From Nocardioides iriomotensis (GTDB lineage Bacteria > Actinomycetota > Actinomycetes > Propionibacteriales > Nocardioidaceae), in NCBI RefSeq assembly GCF_004168035.1, contig NZ_SDPU01000035.1:434001-498000 (forward strand): a stretch of DNA of 64,000 bases, written 5' to 3'. The notes under the pieces are model-generated. The model did no database searches. It was not told where the DNA came from and saw only the letters and a list, made by a program, of their open reading frames with translations. How positions within the stretch are numbered: position 1 is the first letter of the stretch; each line of letters begins with the position of its first letter. Positions 1 through 28,386 of the stretch are shown one piece after another. A program made the position numbers and the translations under genes.

Positions 1-591
1 CAGTACATCCAGGTCAGCGGCCGCGTCGGTCGACGTGCGGATGTCAGCCCCGGACTGGTCATCACCGTCTACGGTGCCGCCAAGCCCCGTGACCGCAGCC
101 ATTACGAGCGCTTCCGGACATACCATCAGCAGCTCTACGCCCAGGTCGAGCCGACCTCAGTGACGCCTTTCGCTACACCGGTCCTGCGTCGGGCGCTCCA
201 CGCAGCCGCCGTGGCGTACGTCCGCCAGACCTCGCCCGAGGACCTTCCTCCATACCCGTTTCCCGCCAACGGGTACCGGGAGGCGATCGAGCTTCTCCGC
301 GAACGCGCGCTTATTGCCGACAAGGGGGAAGTGCCTGTGCTGGAGCGCATGGCTGAAAAGCGCGCCCGCCAGTGGGACGGCTGGGAGCGGACGATCTGGG
401 AAGCCAACCCCGCACCGTGGGGTGACCCCAAGCAGGGGCTCATGCGCTACGCCGGCACGCTCCCAGATCTCGACAGCAAAGCCACCATATGGGATGTGCC
501 AACCAGCATGAGAAACGTCGATGCTGAGTGCCGACTAGCAATCTCGATGGCCTACATCTACGCCGATGCCGCCACGGAGGACGGACTATGA
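1..591 (+). CDS. drmA: DISARM helicase DrmA, C-terminal part (truncated by window edge)
   Basis: The window opens inside an open frame whose last 196 codons are present. It begins with a superfamily-2 helicase motif VI (QVSGRVGR, residues 4-11), followed by PGLVITVYGAAKPRDRSHYE and a VEPTSVTPFATPVLRRALHA stretch that I recognise from the C-terminus of DISARM DrmA helicases. DrmA is an ATP-dependent helicase-like protein which, with DrmB, is the core of the DISARM anti-phage system. The stop codon overlaps the start of drmB in an ATGA, so the two are translationally coupled. Codon use is visibly less GC-biased at third positions than in genes after 3.3 kb, consistent with horizontal acquisition. 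The helicase N-terminus and any methylase gene lie outside the window. A non-DISARM DUF1998-associated helicase is the alternative. Confidence 0.8.
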   Translation, partial: QYIQVSGRVGRRADVSPGLVITVYGAAKPRDRSHYERFRTYHQQLYAQVEPTSVTPFATPVLRRALHAAAVAYVRQTSPEDLPPYPFPANGYREAIELLRERALIADKGEVPVLERMAEKRARQWDGWERTIWEANPAPWGDPKQGLMRYAGTLPDLDSKATIWDVPTSMRNVDAECRLAISMAYIYADAATEDGL

Positions 592-2501
592 GCACCGGAG
601 CAATGCGGCGAGCCCAGCTCGTCACCCCTTTCGGCGTCGGTGCAATGAGCGTGCTCGTCAACGGCACCTCGGTGATCACCGCCGGGCTCGATCACTGGTA
701 TGAGTCCGGTGACGCCAGCTCGCTCGCTCTGGAGGAGTACCAGGAGCACGACTGGCGGCTCGAAGCGCGCCTCCGAGTCTCGGAGTTCCGGCTGCCCCCA
801 GACTTCCGCTACCAGGGACAGGGCAACGACAACCGAAACGTCAAGCTGACCGTGCCGGTGCTGCGTTTTCCCCGCTGGTGCTTCTGCATGTTCTGCAAGC
901 GAATGGAACTCTCCACCCTCACCATGCAGCAGCCCATGGTCTGCAAGGACAAGAAGCACGCTGACTGGAAGTACAAGCCCCGCATGTCGCAGGTTCCGTT
1001 CGTCGCGGTCTGCGCTGATGGGCACCTGGATGACTTCCCGTTCGACAAATGGGTGCACCGAGCACATCGGCCGTCGTGCAATGGGACTCTGCGCTTGAAG
1101 TCCCTCGGGGGCGGTGGCCTTGAGGGTCAGCGCGTGGTGTGCGATGGCTGCCAGAGGGAGAGGACGCTGCGAGGCATCACCGAAGCTCGCTTCGTCAACG
1201 GCGAAGAACACAGCAACCTGAGCGACCAGCTCTCGTCGCCCGACGATCCGTACCTCTGCACGGGAGCCCGGCCTTGGCTAGCGAAGCTCGAAGGTGCCTG
1301 CGGCCAGCCCACGCGCGGAGCCCTGCGCGCGGCGGGCAACGTCTACTTCCCTAAGGTTGAGTCCTCGATCTACCTGCCGCGCAAGGAGGGTGCAGTCAGC
1401 GAGGAAATGCACGAGCTGATGCGCCACCCGGCTGTTAGCGGCACTATGCGAACCCTCCACAGTATTTTTGGTGCCGAACTCGACGTCGAGATGCTCCGTG
1501 CCCAGTTGCTCAAGAACGTTCCGCCCGAGCTCTTCGGCCCGATCTCCAACGAAGAGCTAATCGCTGGCTACTGCGATCTCCTTGGCGTCGGCGAGGACGA
1601 ACCGAAGTCGGGCGAGGAGTCCGACGCCGAGCTGCTCACCGGCGACGACGAGTGGCGTTACCCGGAGTTCCAGCACATCCGCGAGACTCCGAAGGACGAC
1701 TACCTGACGGCAACCAACCCCGGCATCCACGCCGACCTCCACCCCCATCTGGAGCGGGTCCGCTCGGTCGATGTCCTCCGCGAAACCAGAGCGCTGCGCG
1801 GCTTCACCCGGGTCCGGGACGATGTGCTGAAGCTAAGTGTAGGCAAGAAGTTGCTGCGGCGAGAGCCGCTTCCGCCGGTCCAAGACTGGCTGCCCGCCTA
1901 CGTCGTCAAGGGCGAGGGCATCTACTTCGAACTCGATCCTGGGCGCCTGGCAGCCTGGGAAGCCCGAGCCGAGGTACAAGCCCGCGCCCAGAAGATCACC
2001 GACCACTACGGGCAGGTCGCCTCGCAGCGCGGACTTCAAGATCGGACGCTGCGCCCGCGCTTTGTACTCCTCCACACGCTCGGGCACCTGCTCATAAATG
2101 AGCTTGTCTTCGCCTGTGGATACAGCTCGGCCTCACTCCGCGAGCGACTCTACGTGTCCACGGCGGATGGCCGAGAGATGGCAGGGCTGCTGATCTACAC
2201 GGCAGCCGGCGACTCTGAAGGCACGATGGGCGGTCTGGTGCGCATGGCGCGCCCGGACAACCTGCGGTCTGTCTTCGCCTCAGCGATTTCAGACGCGCGC
2301 TGGTGCTCAACTGACCCGGTCTGTATGGATGCCGGGGAGAAGGGGCAAGGCCCTGACTCCTGCAACCTCGCGGCTTGTCACGGCTGCGCGCTCCTGCCGG
2401 AGACTAGCTGTGAGGAGTTCAATCGATTCCTCGACCGGGGCATGGTGATTGGGACTTTCGAGGACCCATTGCTTGGATACTTCGCTGATCTCTCCGCGTG
2501 A
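588..2501 (+). CDS. drmB: DISARM protein DrmB (DUF1998 domain)
   Basis: A 637-residue protein. The start is the ATG at 588 inside the ATGA overlap with drmA; an in-frame ATG at 528 lies within drmA and was rejected. The N-terminus RRAQLVTPFGVGAM is typical of DrmB. Three cysteine groups (CFCMFC near residue 100, CADGH, CDGC) suggest zinc binding. The C-terminal third is the DUF1998 domain: the LLHTLGHLLINELV helix, then GDSEGTMGGL, and a final Cys cluster (CSTDPVC, CNLAACHGC). DrmB partners DrmA; the DrmAB complex is reported to bind and unwind DNA. A PLD-family drmC usually follows drmB, but no such frame is found downstream here. GC content is lower than in neighbouring core genes. Confidence 0.88.
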   Translation: MSTGAMRRAQLVTPFGVGAMSVLVNGTSVITAGLDHWYESGDASSLALEEYQEHDWRLEARLRVSEFRLPPDFRYQGQGNDNRNVKLTVPVLRFPRWCFCMFCKRMELSTLTMQQPMVCKDKKHADWKYKPRMSQVPFVAVCADGHLDDFPFDKWVHRAHRPSCNGTLRLKSLGGGGLEGQRVVCDGCQRERTLRGITEARFVNGEEHSNLSDQLSSPDDPYLCTGARPWLAKLEGACGQPTRGALRAAGNVYFPKVESSIYLPRKEGAVSEEMHELMRHPAVSGTMRTLHSIFGAELDVEMLRAQLLKNVPPELFGPISNEELIAGYCDLLGVGEDEPKSGEESDAELLTGDDEWRYPEFQHIRETPKDDYLTATNPGIHADLHPHLERVRSVDVLRETRALRGFTRVRDDVLKLSVGKKLLRREPLPPVQDWLPAYVVKGEGIYFELDPGRLAAWEARAEVQARAQKITDHYGQVASQRGLQDRTLRPRFVLLHTLGHLLINELVFACGYSSASLRERLYVSTADGREMAGLLIYTAAGDSEGTMGGLVRMARPDNLRSVFASAISDARWCSTDPVCMDAGEKGQGPDSCNLAACHGCALLPETSCEEFNRFLDRGMVIGTFEDPLLGYFADLSA

Positions 2502-2989
2502 TTCAGGAGATACTTCCTGCCAGCGTGCTTCGTCAGCCCGTAACCAGCCGCGTTGGGTCAGGGCCTGGCCAAGCTCAGGGGCCGAACATCGGGCAGAAGG
2601 TGTGCCGGACCGGACCCCGACATCGCGGAAACTCGAAACGATCCGGCCGGACCGTCAGCCCTATCAAACGCGGCCGAATGACGACTGCCGGTGGGGATAG
2701 CCCGCTTTCAGCGACCACATTTTTCGCGGCGCACGGCTGGTCGAGCTCCACGAGCCCGACCTTACGCACATCGTGAAGTGTGGAGCCGAGCCGACGAGGG
2801 GGAGTTGTTCGATGGTATGCACGACCTGTCGTCGTGACGTGGTCTCTGTTGAGCCCAGGACAGGACCCATCGTCGCGCGCGTGCAGGCTGACGTCGCGTC
2901 GGCGCCCGAAGAATCGTCCAAGACTTGTGAGGTGCGACCCTGCGGAGGGTGCCAACACTGCGGGCGAGCGGAGTCCTGCCGCCGCCCGA
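2502..2989. other. Intergenic stretch after drmB, no recognisable gene
   Basis: About 490 bases between drmB and the decayed repeat. Short open frames exist on both strands but none has a convincing ribosome binding site, conserved motif or consistent codon bias. In particular there is no HKD motif of a phospholipase-D-type DrmC. I see no tRNA, integrase or insertion-sequence end. It looks like degraded DNA at the edge of an acquired island. Confidence 0.6.
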
Positions 2990-3222
2990 CCCTCTGCGGA
3001 GAGACGCCGCCGCGGGCGAGTCCGCGTCGGTGCCGCGGTCGCGCAGCGCGTCAACGCAGCGGCGAGTTTGACTCTTCCACCGTGTCCGGGGCTATCCATG
3101 GATGCGCGAGCTGTAGTCGATCAGAGTGTCCGCCCGCTGGCTCAGCTGAGCGGGACGAGCGTGCCCTCGCCGACGTTCAGGTAGACCGCAGGGGGTGACG
3201 TCGGTGTCAGCGTTCTGTGATC
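2990..3222 (-). pseudogene. Decayed copy of the hypothetical/ScyD gene junction
   Basis: This stretch aligns base for base, with scattered substitutions and small indels, to 4470-4690. Shared blocks include GGTGCCGCGGTCGCGCAGCG, CTCTTCCAC, GAGTGTCCG and CTCAGC..AGCGGGACG. On the minus strand it contains a frameshifted relic of the ScyD-like C-terminus (VGEGTLVPLS before a stop; the intact gene ends KGEVMSVPLG), the intergenic gap, and the first ~25 codons of the small hypothetical gene, now interrupted (GTGGAAGAG then frameshift to TGA). It is therefore a dead duplicate of the core locus, left at the border of the DISARM island. Confidence 0.8.
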
Positions 3223-3326
3223 GCTCGATCAGCTGGTCACATGGGCACCAACATGCGCTCTTCGTCTTGCCGCTGCGTCCCCGAACTGCGCGGTTCGAGC
3301 AGGGCTGCAGTTGACAGGCATGCATA

Positions 3327-3365
3327 GATCGGCCCGGCCTTCCCGGCGGGCGGGCCGGGCCGATC
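3327..3365 (-). terminator. Stem-loop downstream of the Rpf-like gene
   Basis: Perfect 13-bp inverted repeat, GATCGGCCCGGCC against GGCCGGGCCGATC, with a 13-base GC-rich loop, 25 bases past the stop of the Rpf-like gene. There is no T-run, as is common for actinobacterial terminators. Confidence 0.65.
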
Positions 3366-3389
3366 GCCGAGTCTTCGCGGGGGGAATGA

Positions 3390-4184: not shown

Positions 4185-4559
4185 TCAGTCGTGCCGGAAG
4201 CCGCCCATGAAGCGGCGGAAGAGACCGCCACGGCGGGCAAGCGGCGGCGCTGGTGGAGGCGTCGTCGCCTTCCGGGTCGCGATGGGCTTGTCGTAGTCGG
4301 TCCGGACGATCGCCTCGATGATCTGCTCGTCGGTGTAGTCGGCCGAGCCCTCGATAACGGGCACGTAGCCGACGAGCATCCCGTTGCGCATCACCTGCGC
4401 CTCGAGCTCGGCGGTGTTGTCGGAGTCCCACGTGGCCTCGCGGCCGTCGGGGAGCTTCACGACGATGCCGAACTGGTAGACGCCCACCCGGGCCAGGTCC
4501 GCGTTGGTGCCGCGGTCGCGCAGCGCGTCGACGACACGGCGAGCCTTGATCTCTTCCAC
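4185..4559 (-). CDS. Hypothetical protein, 124 aa
   Basis: Starts at a GTG (4559) preceded at 7 bases by a TAGTCT -10 element. The first ~85 residues look like one small alpha/beta domain (VVDALRDRGTNADLARVGVY, then IVVKLPDGREATWDSD). The C-terminus is a low-complexity Pro/Arg tail (TTPPPAPPLARRGGLFRRF). No signal peptide or membrane segment. I do not recognise the family. A decayed copy of its first ~25 codons lies at 3000-3075, showing that the locus was once duplicated. It precedes the riboswitch-rpf unit on the same strand. Confidence 0.7.
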   Translation of the reverse strand: MEEIKARRVVDALRDRGTNADLARVGVYQFGIVVKLPDGREATWDSDNTAELEAQVMRNGMLVGYVPVIEGSADYTDEQIIEAIVRTDYDKPIATRKATTPPPAPPLARRGGLFRRFMGGFRHD

Positions 4560-4566
4560 GTGTTCG

Positions 4567-4572
4567 AGACTA
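4567..4572 (-). promoter_or_regulatory. Leaderless-type -10 element (TAGTCT)
   Basis: TAGTCT sits exactly 7 bases before the GTG start of the 124-aa gene, which would place the transcript start at the start codon. The decayed copy at ~3085 has lost this hexamer. Confidence 0.5.
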
Positions 4573-4619
4573 GCCAGGGATCTGGAGTCGGCTGTTCACC
4601 CGAGTGTCCGTCCGCCGGC

Positions 4620-5741
4620 TCAGCCCAGCGGGACGGACATCACCTCGCCCTTGTTCGGGCACACTGCGCAGGTGGTGACATAGGCGTTGGAGCCCTTGAA
4701 GGCCACGCCGTACGGCGCGAACAGGCCCGCTGCCACCGCGGGGTGGGTGGTCCCGCCGGGCACGACCTGCCGCAGCGACCCGATCGGCGGACCGCCCGAG
4801 GCGAGGCCGGCGTCGGAGATCTGCACCGCGTAGAGCGTCCCGTTGTGCCAACCGAGGTCTGTGACGTTGGTCAGCCCGCTCGCGTAGACCGTCGGCGCCT
4901 CACCGGGCACCGCGCGGTAGATCTGCGCCGCGTTCATCACGAACGGGAAGCCGGTCAGCTGGCTGATGTAGTAGGCGCCGTCGGGCCCCTTGACCACGGA
5001 GGTGGGGACGGCCTGGAACTCGTCCGAGCCGGCGTACGACCGGTCGGGGAAGACGGCCAGGACCTTGACCCCGCGGTCGCGGTGCACCTTCAGCCAGTCG
5101 TTGCCGCCGGCATCGGTGACCAGGAACTTCTTCTTCTTCTTCAGCACGGAGACTGGGTTGCTGTCCGGCGCGGTGGGGTGCGGGTTCTCCCTGGCCTCGA
5201 AGCCGCCCAGGTCGGCGATCTCCTTCAGCTCACCGTCCTGGTGGCCGCCACGCAGGTTCGCGGCGACCAGCATGGCCATCCACCGGCCCTTCTTCGGCAG
5301 GTCCTCGCGCACCGCCGGGTCGGCGCCCAGCCCGACCGTGAACGCGATGCGGTGGTCGCCGTACGGGATCACGTCGGACGGGCCGATGGCTCCGGCTCCG
5401 TCCTTGTCCGCCAACGAGGGGAGCTTCTTGACCAGGCGCTCCAGGTTGCCTCCGCGGAGCCGGGTGATCGCCCCCGACTTGCCGAAGCACACCGGTGACC
5501 CCTCGGGACCGGGCATGCACGGGCCCTTCCCGCCGACGCCGGCCTCGGCGATGAGGAAGCCGACGCCCTTCTTGAAGGTGATCTGGCGGGGGTTGTCGAG
5601 CCCGGAGGCCACGCTCACCGGGGCGGAGGACCGCGGCTGCGCGGTCTCTGCCACCGAAGCAGCAGGGACGACAGCCAGGGGGAGGGCTATCGCCGCCCCC
5701 GCGATGAGAAGGGCCTGGATCGGAGACTTCGAGCGCACCAT
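4620..5741 (-). CDS. Secreted ScyD/ScyE-family protein
   Basis: A 373-residue protein starting at ATG 5741, with GGGAGAG a few bases upstream. It has a clear Sec signal peptide (basic MVRSKS, hydrophobic ALLIAGAAIALPLAVVPAA). The mature part begins VASGLDNPRQITF, the classic opening of ScyD/ScyE and NHL-like beta-propellers, and repeats such as VVKGPDGAYYISQLTG, VYASGLTNVTDLGWHNGTLY and LFAPYGVAFKGSNAYVTTC follow. The ScyD/ScyE name comes from cyanobacterial scytonemin clusters, but most actinobacterial members are secreted propellers of unknown ligand. A five-lysine run (KKKKK) comes from a CTT microsatellite near 5130. A relic of its 3' end lies at ~3150-3220. Confidence 0.82.
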   Translation of the reverse strand: MVRSKSPIQALLIAGAAIALPLAVVPAASVAETAQPRSSAPVSVASGLDNPRQITFKKGVGFLIAEAGVGGKGPCMPGPEGSPVCFGKSGAITRLRGGNLERLVKKLPSLADKDGAGAIGPSDVIPYGDHRIAFTVGLGADPAVREDLPKKGRWMAMLVAANLRGGHQDGELKEIADLGGFEARENPHPTAPDSNPVSVLKKKKKFLVTDAGGNDWLKVHRDRGVKVLAVFPDRSYAGSDEFQAVPTSVVKGPDGAYYISQLTGFPFVMNAAQIYRAVPGEAPTVYASGLTNVTDLGWHNGTLYAVQISDAGLASGGPPIGSLRQVVPGGTTHPAVAAGLFAPYGVAFKGSNAYVTTCAVCPNKGEVMSVPLG

Positions 5742-26751: not shown

Positions 26752-28386
26752 GTGCCGATCATGGTCCCGGAGGCGCCGTCGTTCACGACCTCCAGCGAGC
26801 GCGAGGTCTGGGAGCTGCTCCGCGAGCAGCTCGGCGACGACGACCTGCTGATCAGCGGGCAGCGGATCTCGGCGCGCGACAAGGACCACGAGATCGACAT
26901 CTGCGTGGCGTTCGCCGACGCCGGCATCGTCGTGGTGGAGGTCAAGGGCGGCCAGGTCTGGTACGACGACGGCTGGTGGATCGACCGGCGCGGGCGCGAG
27001 GACCGCATCGACCCGATCACCCAGGCCCGCGAGGCGCAGTACGCCCTGCGCGGCTGGCTCGACCGCGACCCCCGCTGGGGCTCCCGGTCCGGGCTGCGCT
27101 GGGGCCACGCCCTGGTGCTGCCGCACACCAAGATCGCCGAGGACTTCGGCACGCCCGACGCGCAGCGCTGGCAGGTCGCCGGCCGCGACGACATGGACGG
27201 CCTCGCCGACTTCCTCCGTCGCGTGGTCACCGGGCAGACCAACAACAAGCGGATGCTGACGTTGGACGACGTCGACGCGCTCCGCGAGGCGCTGGCCGGT
27301 CGCGGGCTCCCGCAGCGCGACCTGATCGGGTTCGCCGCCGAGCGCGACGACGAGGTCGAACGGCTCAGCGCCGAGCAGGCGGTGATCCTGAGGGCGGCCC
27401 GGCTGCTGAACCGGGTCGAGGTCCGCGGCGGCGCCGGCAGCGGCAAGACCTGGCTGGCCGTCGAGCAGGCGCGGCGGCTGAGCCGGGAGGGCAAGCGGGT
27501 CGCGCTCACCTGCTACTCCCGCGGCCTGGCCGCCTGGCTCGAGCGCCGGGTGGCCACGTTGCCGCGCCGGGAGCGTCCGGCGTACGTGGGCACCTTCCAC
27601 AACCTCGGCGTGGAGTGGGGCGCGCCGACCGGCAGCGAGGACGACAGCCACTTCTGGGAGGTCGAGCTGCCCACCCGGATGGTCGACCTCGGCCGCGAGC
27701 AGCCCGAGGGCCGGCTCTACGACGCGCTCGTGATCGACGAGGCGCAGGACTTCGCCGACCTCTGGTGGCCGGCCGCGCTGGCCGCGCTCAAGGACGAGGA
27801 GACCGGCGGCCTCTTCGTGTGCACCGACGAGGGGCAGCGGGTCTTCTCCCGGTACGGCGGCCCGCCGCCCGGCCTGGTCCCGCTGGTGCTCGACCAGAAC
27901 CTGCGCAACACCCGCCAGATCGCCGAGAGCTTCTCGACGCTCGCGCCGATCCGGATGCGGCTGGGCACCGCCAACGGTCCCGACGTCACCTTCGTCGAGT
28001 GCCCGACCACCGACGCGCTGGACGTGGCCGAGGACCACGTCGACTGGATGCTCGACGCGGGCTGGCGGCCCGAGGACCTCGCCCTGCTCACGACCGGGTC
28101 GCGCTCGGCCGAGCAGCGGCTCCGGCAGGAGGCCGGTGCGGACGCCTACTGGAGCACCTTCTGGGACCACGAGCAGGTGTTCTACGGCCACGTGCTCGGG
28201 TTCAAGGGGCTCGAGCGGCCGGCCGTGATCCTCGCGCTCAACGAGACCACGATCAGCGAGCGGTCGAAGGAGCGGCTCTACGTCGGGCTCTCGCGGGCCC
28301 GCGACCAGCTGCTCGTCGTCGGCGACCCCGACTTCGTCGCCGAGGTCGGAGGGCCGGCGGTGCTCCGGCACCTGCGCGGCGGCTGA
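26752..28386 (+). CDS. NERD-domain UvrD-like helicase
   Basis: A 544-residue fusion. Residues ~10-150 form a NERD (nuclease-related) domain: KDHEIDICVAF then GIVVVEVKGGQVWYDDG gives the D..E.K arrangement of restriction-like nucleases. Residues ~215-540 form a superfamily-1 helicase: RGGAGSGKTWLAVEQA (Walker A), LVIDEAQDFADLWWP (Walker B), a QNLRNT arginine motif, FKGLERPAVILA and LYVGLSRARDQL. Such fusions are thought to act on nucleic acids and often sit in defence or repair loci. Start GTG 26752 (GAGGTGG upstream); ATG 26761 is possible. It heads an accessory-looking group up to 31191. Confidence 0.87.
   Translation: MPIMVPEAPSFTTSSEREVWELLREQLGDDDLLISGQRISARDKDHEIDICVAFADAGIVVVEVKGGQVWYDDGWWIDRRGREDRIDPITQAREAQYALRGWLDRDPRWGSRSGLRWGHALVLPHTKIAEDFGTPDAQRWQVAGRDDMDGLADFLRRVVTGQTNNKRMLTLDDVDALREALAGRGLPQRDLIGFAAERDDEVERLSAEQAVILRAARLLNRVEVRGGAGSGKTWLAVEQARRLSREGKRVALTCYSRGLAAWLERRVATLPRRERPAYVGTFHNLGVEWGAPTGSEDDSHFWEVELPTRMVDLGREQPEGRLYDALVIDEAQDFADLWWPAALAALKDEETGGLFVCTDEGQRVFSRYGGPPPGLVPLVLDQNLRNTRQIAESFSTLAPIRMRLGTANGPDVTFVECPTTDALDVAEDHVDWMLDAGWRPEDLALLTTGSRSAEQRLRQEAGADAYWSTFWDHEQVFYGHVLGFKGLERPAVILALNETTISERSKERLYVGLSRARDQLLVVGDPDFVAEVGGPAVLRHLRGG

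Follow-up and report, generated by a model that had tools for sequence, protein, structure and literature searches.

The window analysed here (64,000 bases; G000:C29:434001-498000) opens within the last two genes of a five-gene operon. Our data indicate that this operon is probably a complete, horizontally acquired and DrmC-free relative of DISARM, composed of a DrmE-like part split between two genes (A and B), a NERD nuclease/UvrD-type helicase fusion (NERD-UvrD), DrmA and DrmB, with a C5 methyltransferase in the same island and with NERD-UvrD as the likely effector. The five genes overlap in their reading frames and are conserved as a block, the NERD and helicase motifs are intact, and drmC is absent from the operons of the clade. 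Its best reading is a variant of the known DISARM system that lacks DrmC and bears a NERD-helicase. A preliminary description saw here the edge of a DISARM island that had lost drmC or been reduced to two genes. Kinship with DISARM, transfer and the absence of drmC are borne out, while loss and two-gene reduction are not, and the window holds one edge of a complete and different operon.

The operon and its island

The operon consists of five tightly packed forward-strand genes in the order A-B-NERD-UvrD-drmA-drmB. Upstream of the window, for which C29 coordinates are used, lie genes A (C29:426888-427886) and B (C29:427883-429397), both unannotated, and NERD-UvrD (C29:429394-431097). They are followed by drmA (1165 amino acids; G000:C29:431094-434591, or L006:12094-15591), which begins 2906 bases before the window and leaves its last 196 codons and stop at window 1..591, and by drmB (637 amino acids; window 588..2501, or C29:434588-436501). 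Every junction is an NTGA overlap (GTGA, ATGA, ATGA and ATGA), with ATG taken as the start of NERD-UvrD and a GTG nine bases earlier also possible. The drmA/drmB overlap comprises the four bases at window 588-591, so the preliminary description was right that these two genes are coupled and intact within the window; its two-gene arrangement does not fit the three further open genes upstream.

Profile and PDB matches confirm that the first gene encodes DrmA, which scores 684 bits with the PADLOC DrmA model, 821 bits with NCBIfam DrmAS (below the equivalog cut-off of 950) and E 9e-140 with DrmA of PDB 7s9v. DrmB, a DUF1998/MZB protein, scores 423 bits with NCBIfam DrmB_fam (cut-off 240), 34.1 bits with Pfam MZB (cut-off 24.2) and E 8e-73 with chain B of 7s9v. 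The DrmA helicase and the DUF1998/MZB-containing DrmB of the DISARM core are both present, and it is through them that the operon is kin to DISARM; by the PADLOC definitions it lies outside class 1 and outside class 2. The PLD nuclease DrmC, which as a core feature follows DrmB, is missing from the operon. In tblastn searches with 16 DrmC proteins we found no drmC gene or remnant in the whole window or in the 40 kb upstream, the best E values being 0.049 for the window as a whole and 0.12 for 56 kb of this locus (L003+L004+L005); in the positive control, two seed DrmC proteins recovered the drmC of locus L113 at E 4e-45. No PLD gene was found upstream in the same operon, and the earlier report of its absence after drmB stands. 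The DNA that follows the operon (window 2502..3389, no strand assigned) is non-coding and partly decayed, in agreement with the same report, and contains neither drmC nor a drmC remnant. No convincing gene lies between the end of drmB and window 3389, and window 3002-3207 is a decayed copy, 76% identical over 212 bp to window 4478-4687, the original being a host gene junction in parallel orientation about 1.5 kb further on.

Between the host gene nrdJ and gene A the island carries a NaeI-type nuclease (C29:420888-421820), a C5 methyltransferase (C29:421864-423138), an AspBHI/Mrr-type nuclease (C29:423185-424444), Vsr (C29:424441-424911) and, on the reverse strand, a HEPN-like gene (C29:424936-425466) and a DUF262/GmrSD_N gene (C29:425475-426731). 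The last two are paired (L006:5936-7731), the same two kinds of gene adjoin each other on Rhodococcus opacus plasmid pROB02, and we regard them as a candidate defence pair. The methyltransferase, about 3.7 kb upstream of gene A and adjoining the NaeI nuclease, is matched best by DruM2 (651 bits) and a Type II model (589 bits) and reaches only 93 bits with DrmMII; it may be part of the NaeI module only.

Horizontal acquisition of the operon, proposed earlier from composition, is supported by third-position GC of 0.74-0.79 in the operon, compared with 0.95 in nrdJ and a lysA-like gene, two host genes that flank it. In the relatives G397, G398 and G405 nucleotide similarity breaks off where nrdJ ends (C29:420817-420819), immediately ahead of the NaeI gene, and we therefore place the left edge of the island there. 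On the right side, similarity to G397 is back from C29:443696, the order is changed in G405, with two short matches (437390-437915) and a further one that starts at 445326, and G398 shows no similarity within the 40 kb examined. Integration borne by a tRNA was rejected because both L004 and the window lack one.

Genes A and B

At other loci, a single DrmE-like protein of about 860 amino acids stands in place of A and B. By hhalign, B pairs with the C-terminal region of these proteins (probability 99.9) and A, weakly, with their N-terminus (probability 42, E 2.7e-4); with HMMER the A profile matches none of them. The operon yields no PADLOC DrmE match, and its B scores 19.3 bits with Pfam DrmE_C, below the cut-off of 27. 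Among relatives, L086 (41.3), L095 (34.9) and L020 (28.2) score above that cut-off and L072 (25.4) and others below it. Two of four single-gene proteins pass (L086 and L095) and two fall below (L110 and L129), and passes are also recorded for B of Nostoc and for a 1106-amino-acid protein of L137, a class 2 locus with DrmC. A match of B in genome G221 (E 7.6e-4) was dropped, no other operon component being present in that stretch. A Lactiplantibacillus plasmid (L030) carries a C5 methylase, an 801-amino-acid DrmE candidate, drmA and drmB, without drmC or NERD; the 801-amino-acid protein matches neither A, B, the single-gene proteins of about 860 amino acids nor any DrmE model.

Structure models of the Nostocoides proteins (pLDDT 91.5 for A and 90.8 for B) resemble the lobes of SF2 helicases. 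Among the Foldseek candidates the similarity is to RecA1 lobes for A (162 positions aligned at rmsd 3.9, Z 8.6 at best) and to RecA2 lobes for B (best match Hef, with 184 positions aligned at rmsd 3.6 and Z 10.0), the lobes being assigned from the matched chain ranges; these Z values are middling. Foldseek returned no match under E 0.001 for either protein, and the A and B profiles found nothing meaningful among PDB sequences. A GxGK(S/T) motif is present in none of the 34 A and none of the 39 B proteins but in 7 of 7 DrmA, and a looser P-loop pattern in one A (of 34) and one B (of 39). What favours the reading of a split pseudo-helicase is that two separate models each picked a different lobe of the same superfamily, and did so in the expected order. 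On these models, DrmE here looks like an SF2 fold that lacks ATPase motifs and is divided between its lobes A and B. This offers a structural hypothesis for DrmE, for whose function the passages of the DISARM literature available to us hold no description.

Recurrence of the block and exclusion of DrmC

The five-gene block occurs in at least 15 phyla. All five genes are present in G050 (identities of 51, 66, 76, 83 and 89%) and on plasmid pROB02 of R. opacus B4, there with the same satellites (NaeI, Vsr, C5 methylase, DUF262 and HEPN) in rearranged form. The nearest relatives, G050 and Nostocoides, have DrmA proteins 83-86% identical to ours, and no drmC is found in their operons or in those of the whole clade. 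We classified 119 drmA loci by profiles: the best 80 of 534 relatives from a contig scan with a DrmA alignment, 12 from plasmids and genomes of the same phylum, and 27 from a phylum sample. The alignment was DrmC-free, so the 80 loci are a biased sample, and in the set that includes them NERD-UvrD occurs in 69 loci, DrmC in 16, both in 0 and neither in 34. At L066 a further PLD-type gene (746 amino acids) that lies on the opposite strand and is separated from drmA by about 8 kb was not scored as an operon drmC. The phylum sample, which was not chosen for drmC, covered 396 genomes and gave 30 drmA loci in 29 of them, with helicase matches below 200 bits omitted; here NERD occurs in 8, DrmC in 14, both in 0 and neither in 8 (Fisher p 0.0027, kinship ignored).

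Within the 69 NERD loci the order A-B-NERD-DrmA-DrmB is kept in 42 and B-NERD-DrmA-DrmB in another 15, many of the latter with one B of about 860 amino acids. NERD lies within 30 bp of DrmA in 65 of the 68 loci measured. Of the 50 NERD loci whose flanks are long enough, 43 have a C5 methyltransferase; the corresponding figures are 1 of 13 for DrmC loci and 10 of 23 for loci with neither nuclease. Its frequency beside NERD fits a cytosine marking of self. The 34 loci with neither nuclease belong to Bacillota and cyanobacterial branches and include L043 in the subclade of our operon; some of their contigs are cut. The NERD gene is therefore not always needed. On a Tsukamurella plasmid (L029), the genes immediately after DrmA-DrmB encode a DrmD-like helicase, a large methylase, a further DEAD/DEAH helicase and a Zn-binding protein, so that two systems may be adjacent here.

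We inferred trees from 114 DrmA rows (FastTree) and 71 rows (IQ-TREE). The former omits L065 (same place as L024), L105 (a copy of L081) and the fragments L075, L047 and L089, which are all still counted among the 119 loci. The 71-row tree (71 of the 119) and a 42-row tree (29 of the 119 plus 13 of 17 phage contigs) are hand-picked subsets. One side of the 71-row tree, with 51 rows and an SH-aLRT of 98, holds 40 NERD loci, 11 with neither and no DrmC, and both the 114-row and 71-row trees place DrmC in the class 1 clade and one small class 2 clade. Our operon is on the side where no member's operon examined has drmC, which contradicts the earlier suggestion of loss. Independent-pair tests of DrmC against NERD gave four pairs and did not separate replacement from common descent, and the exclusion is a clade-level pattern without independent replication. 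None of the 17 phage or prophage contigs combines a strong NERD-helicase match with DrmC; L154 has DrmC and a weak SF1 helicase match (32 bits), and in L153 and L158 NERD-UvrD directly follows drmB. Within a supported group of four phage loci the slot after drmB holds PLD DrmC in L154 and NERD-UvrD in L153, a suggestive local case. A second drmC-free DrmAB branch (L125, L127, L128 and L130-L133) encodes UvrD-type helicases upstream or downstream of drmA-drmB, and some of these include a NERD domain.

Proposed role of NERD-UvrD and comparison with known systems

Nearly all sequences retain the PD-(D/E)xK residues of the NERD domain: counting those with a letter at the position among the 69 aligned, E51 is found in 65/65, D53 in 65/65, E67 in 66/67 and K69 in 67/67. 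Key residues of the helicase Walker motif and motif VI are invariant in the same alignment. A distant paralogue of the NERD-helicase (29% identity) lies at window 26773-28329, and G397 and G398 have matches to it at about the same distance from nrdJ.

We propose that DrmAB would load at single-stranded ends exposed on entering phage DNA and be restrained by host methylation, both by analogy with characterised DISARM, for which the sections of PMC9142583 seen by us report binding of DrmAB to DNA with 5' overhangs, restraint by a trigger loop and an ATPase limited by methylated DNA. DrmE, with a predicted helicase fold, no ATPase motifs and two split lobes, may be a non-catalytic scaffold or DNA-sensing adaptor. 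NERD-UvrD would then unwind and cut the captured DNA, the part played elsewhere by DrmC. Our confidence is evenly balanced on the broader proposal of a third DISARM class, ancient and spread over many phyla. In such a class DrmE would be a catalytically inactive SF2 helicase whose two lobes are encoded separately, and a NERD PD-(D/E)xK nuclease fused to an active SF1 helicase would replace the PLD effector, as a motor-nuclease that unwinds and cuts DrmAB-captured DNA in place of DrmC. According to the same sections of PMC9142583, DISARM can dispense with DrmC and often lacks it; for the destruction of phage DNA, the conserved nuclease-helicase built into this large DrmC-free branch is a candidate effector. 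The PADLOC paper, in the part consulted, requires DrmC for both DISARM classes, and such definitions would miss this branch.

NERD-UvrD could instead be an autonomous defence gene that travels within a DISARM operon. NERD-helicases of other systems (PADLOC RTasNERD-Hel and C3a187), the paralogue in the window and the branches without a NERD gene lend this some weight, but we consider it unlikely given the overlapping frames and the fixed place before drmA across so many phyla. It is likewise improbable that DrmAB works with a PLD nuclease from another genomic location, NERD-helicase being accessory: the sections of PMC9142583 cited above suggest that other PLD proteins may replace a missing DrmC, and 18 PLDc_2 matches occur in our genome, several of them within a single gene, but none is on contig C29, and the conserved nuclease-helicase inside the operon of most relatives would be left unexplained. 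Recent loss of drmC from a DISARM now in decay is very improbable and largely refuted, since, for all that drmC is absent and degenerate DNA occupies its usual slot directly after drmB, the five genes are all open and overlapping, the nearest relatives and the whole clade also lack an operon drmC, and part of the degenerate stretch matches a host gene junction and not drmC.

In the parts of the DISARM literature searched, we found no description of a NERD-helicase/DrmAB arrangement, nor one of a NERD-helicase in DISARM in the portions seen of PMC10270631, PMC10952713, PMC12839542 and PMC9716671. PMC12458937, as far as seen, describes DISARM as typically having the PLD protein DrmC, recognises many uncharacterized DISARM-like classes in a DISARM-like clade, and mentions NERD only in TALON. 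TALON resembles our operon in pairing a YprA-type helicase with a NERD-subtype PD-(D/E)xK nuclease. It has ARMADA-like YprA, TPR-CSD and TBP genes, whereas in our operon the helicase and the DUF1998 protein each have a DISARM-like gene of their own and the NERD domain is joined to an SF1 helicase. Among the 11 island proteins, Pfam scans found no TPR, CSD or TBP, and DrmA and DrmB are of DISARM type. ARMADA type II, according to the same portions, likewise combines a YprA-type helicase and a GajB/UvrD-like helicase in one operon, but with BrxHII-like and PglX-like genes and a RelE-helicase rather than a NERD fusion. Our helicase scores only 27.8 bits with GajB, and no GajA (OLD/TOPRIM nuclease) of Gabija is among the island proteins. 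RTasNERD-Hel and C3a187 share the NERD plus UvrD layout, but these models are not tied to DrmAB and score only 101 and 60 bits with our protein.

DISARM class 1 (DrmD, DrmMI, DrmA, DrmB, DrmC) shares only DrmA and DrmB with our operon, which lacks DrmC; profiles found neither DrmD nor the adenine methyltransferase DrmMI in L006, whereas they detected both in 10 class 1 loci. For archaeal proviruses, the text of PMC11705971 available to us lists a class 2 DISARM made up of DrmE, DrmA, DrmB and a methylase, without DrmC. With class 2 (PADLOC type II: DrmA, DrmB, DrmC, DrmE, DrmMII) our operon shares DrmA, DrmB, an apparently DrmE-related part and a nearby C5 methyltransferase. It differs from that class in lacking DrmC, in dividing the DrmE-like part, whose profile match is weak or none, between two genes, in having its methylase in the NaeI module, and in placing NERD-UvrD between the DrmE-like part and DrmA.
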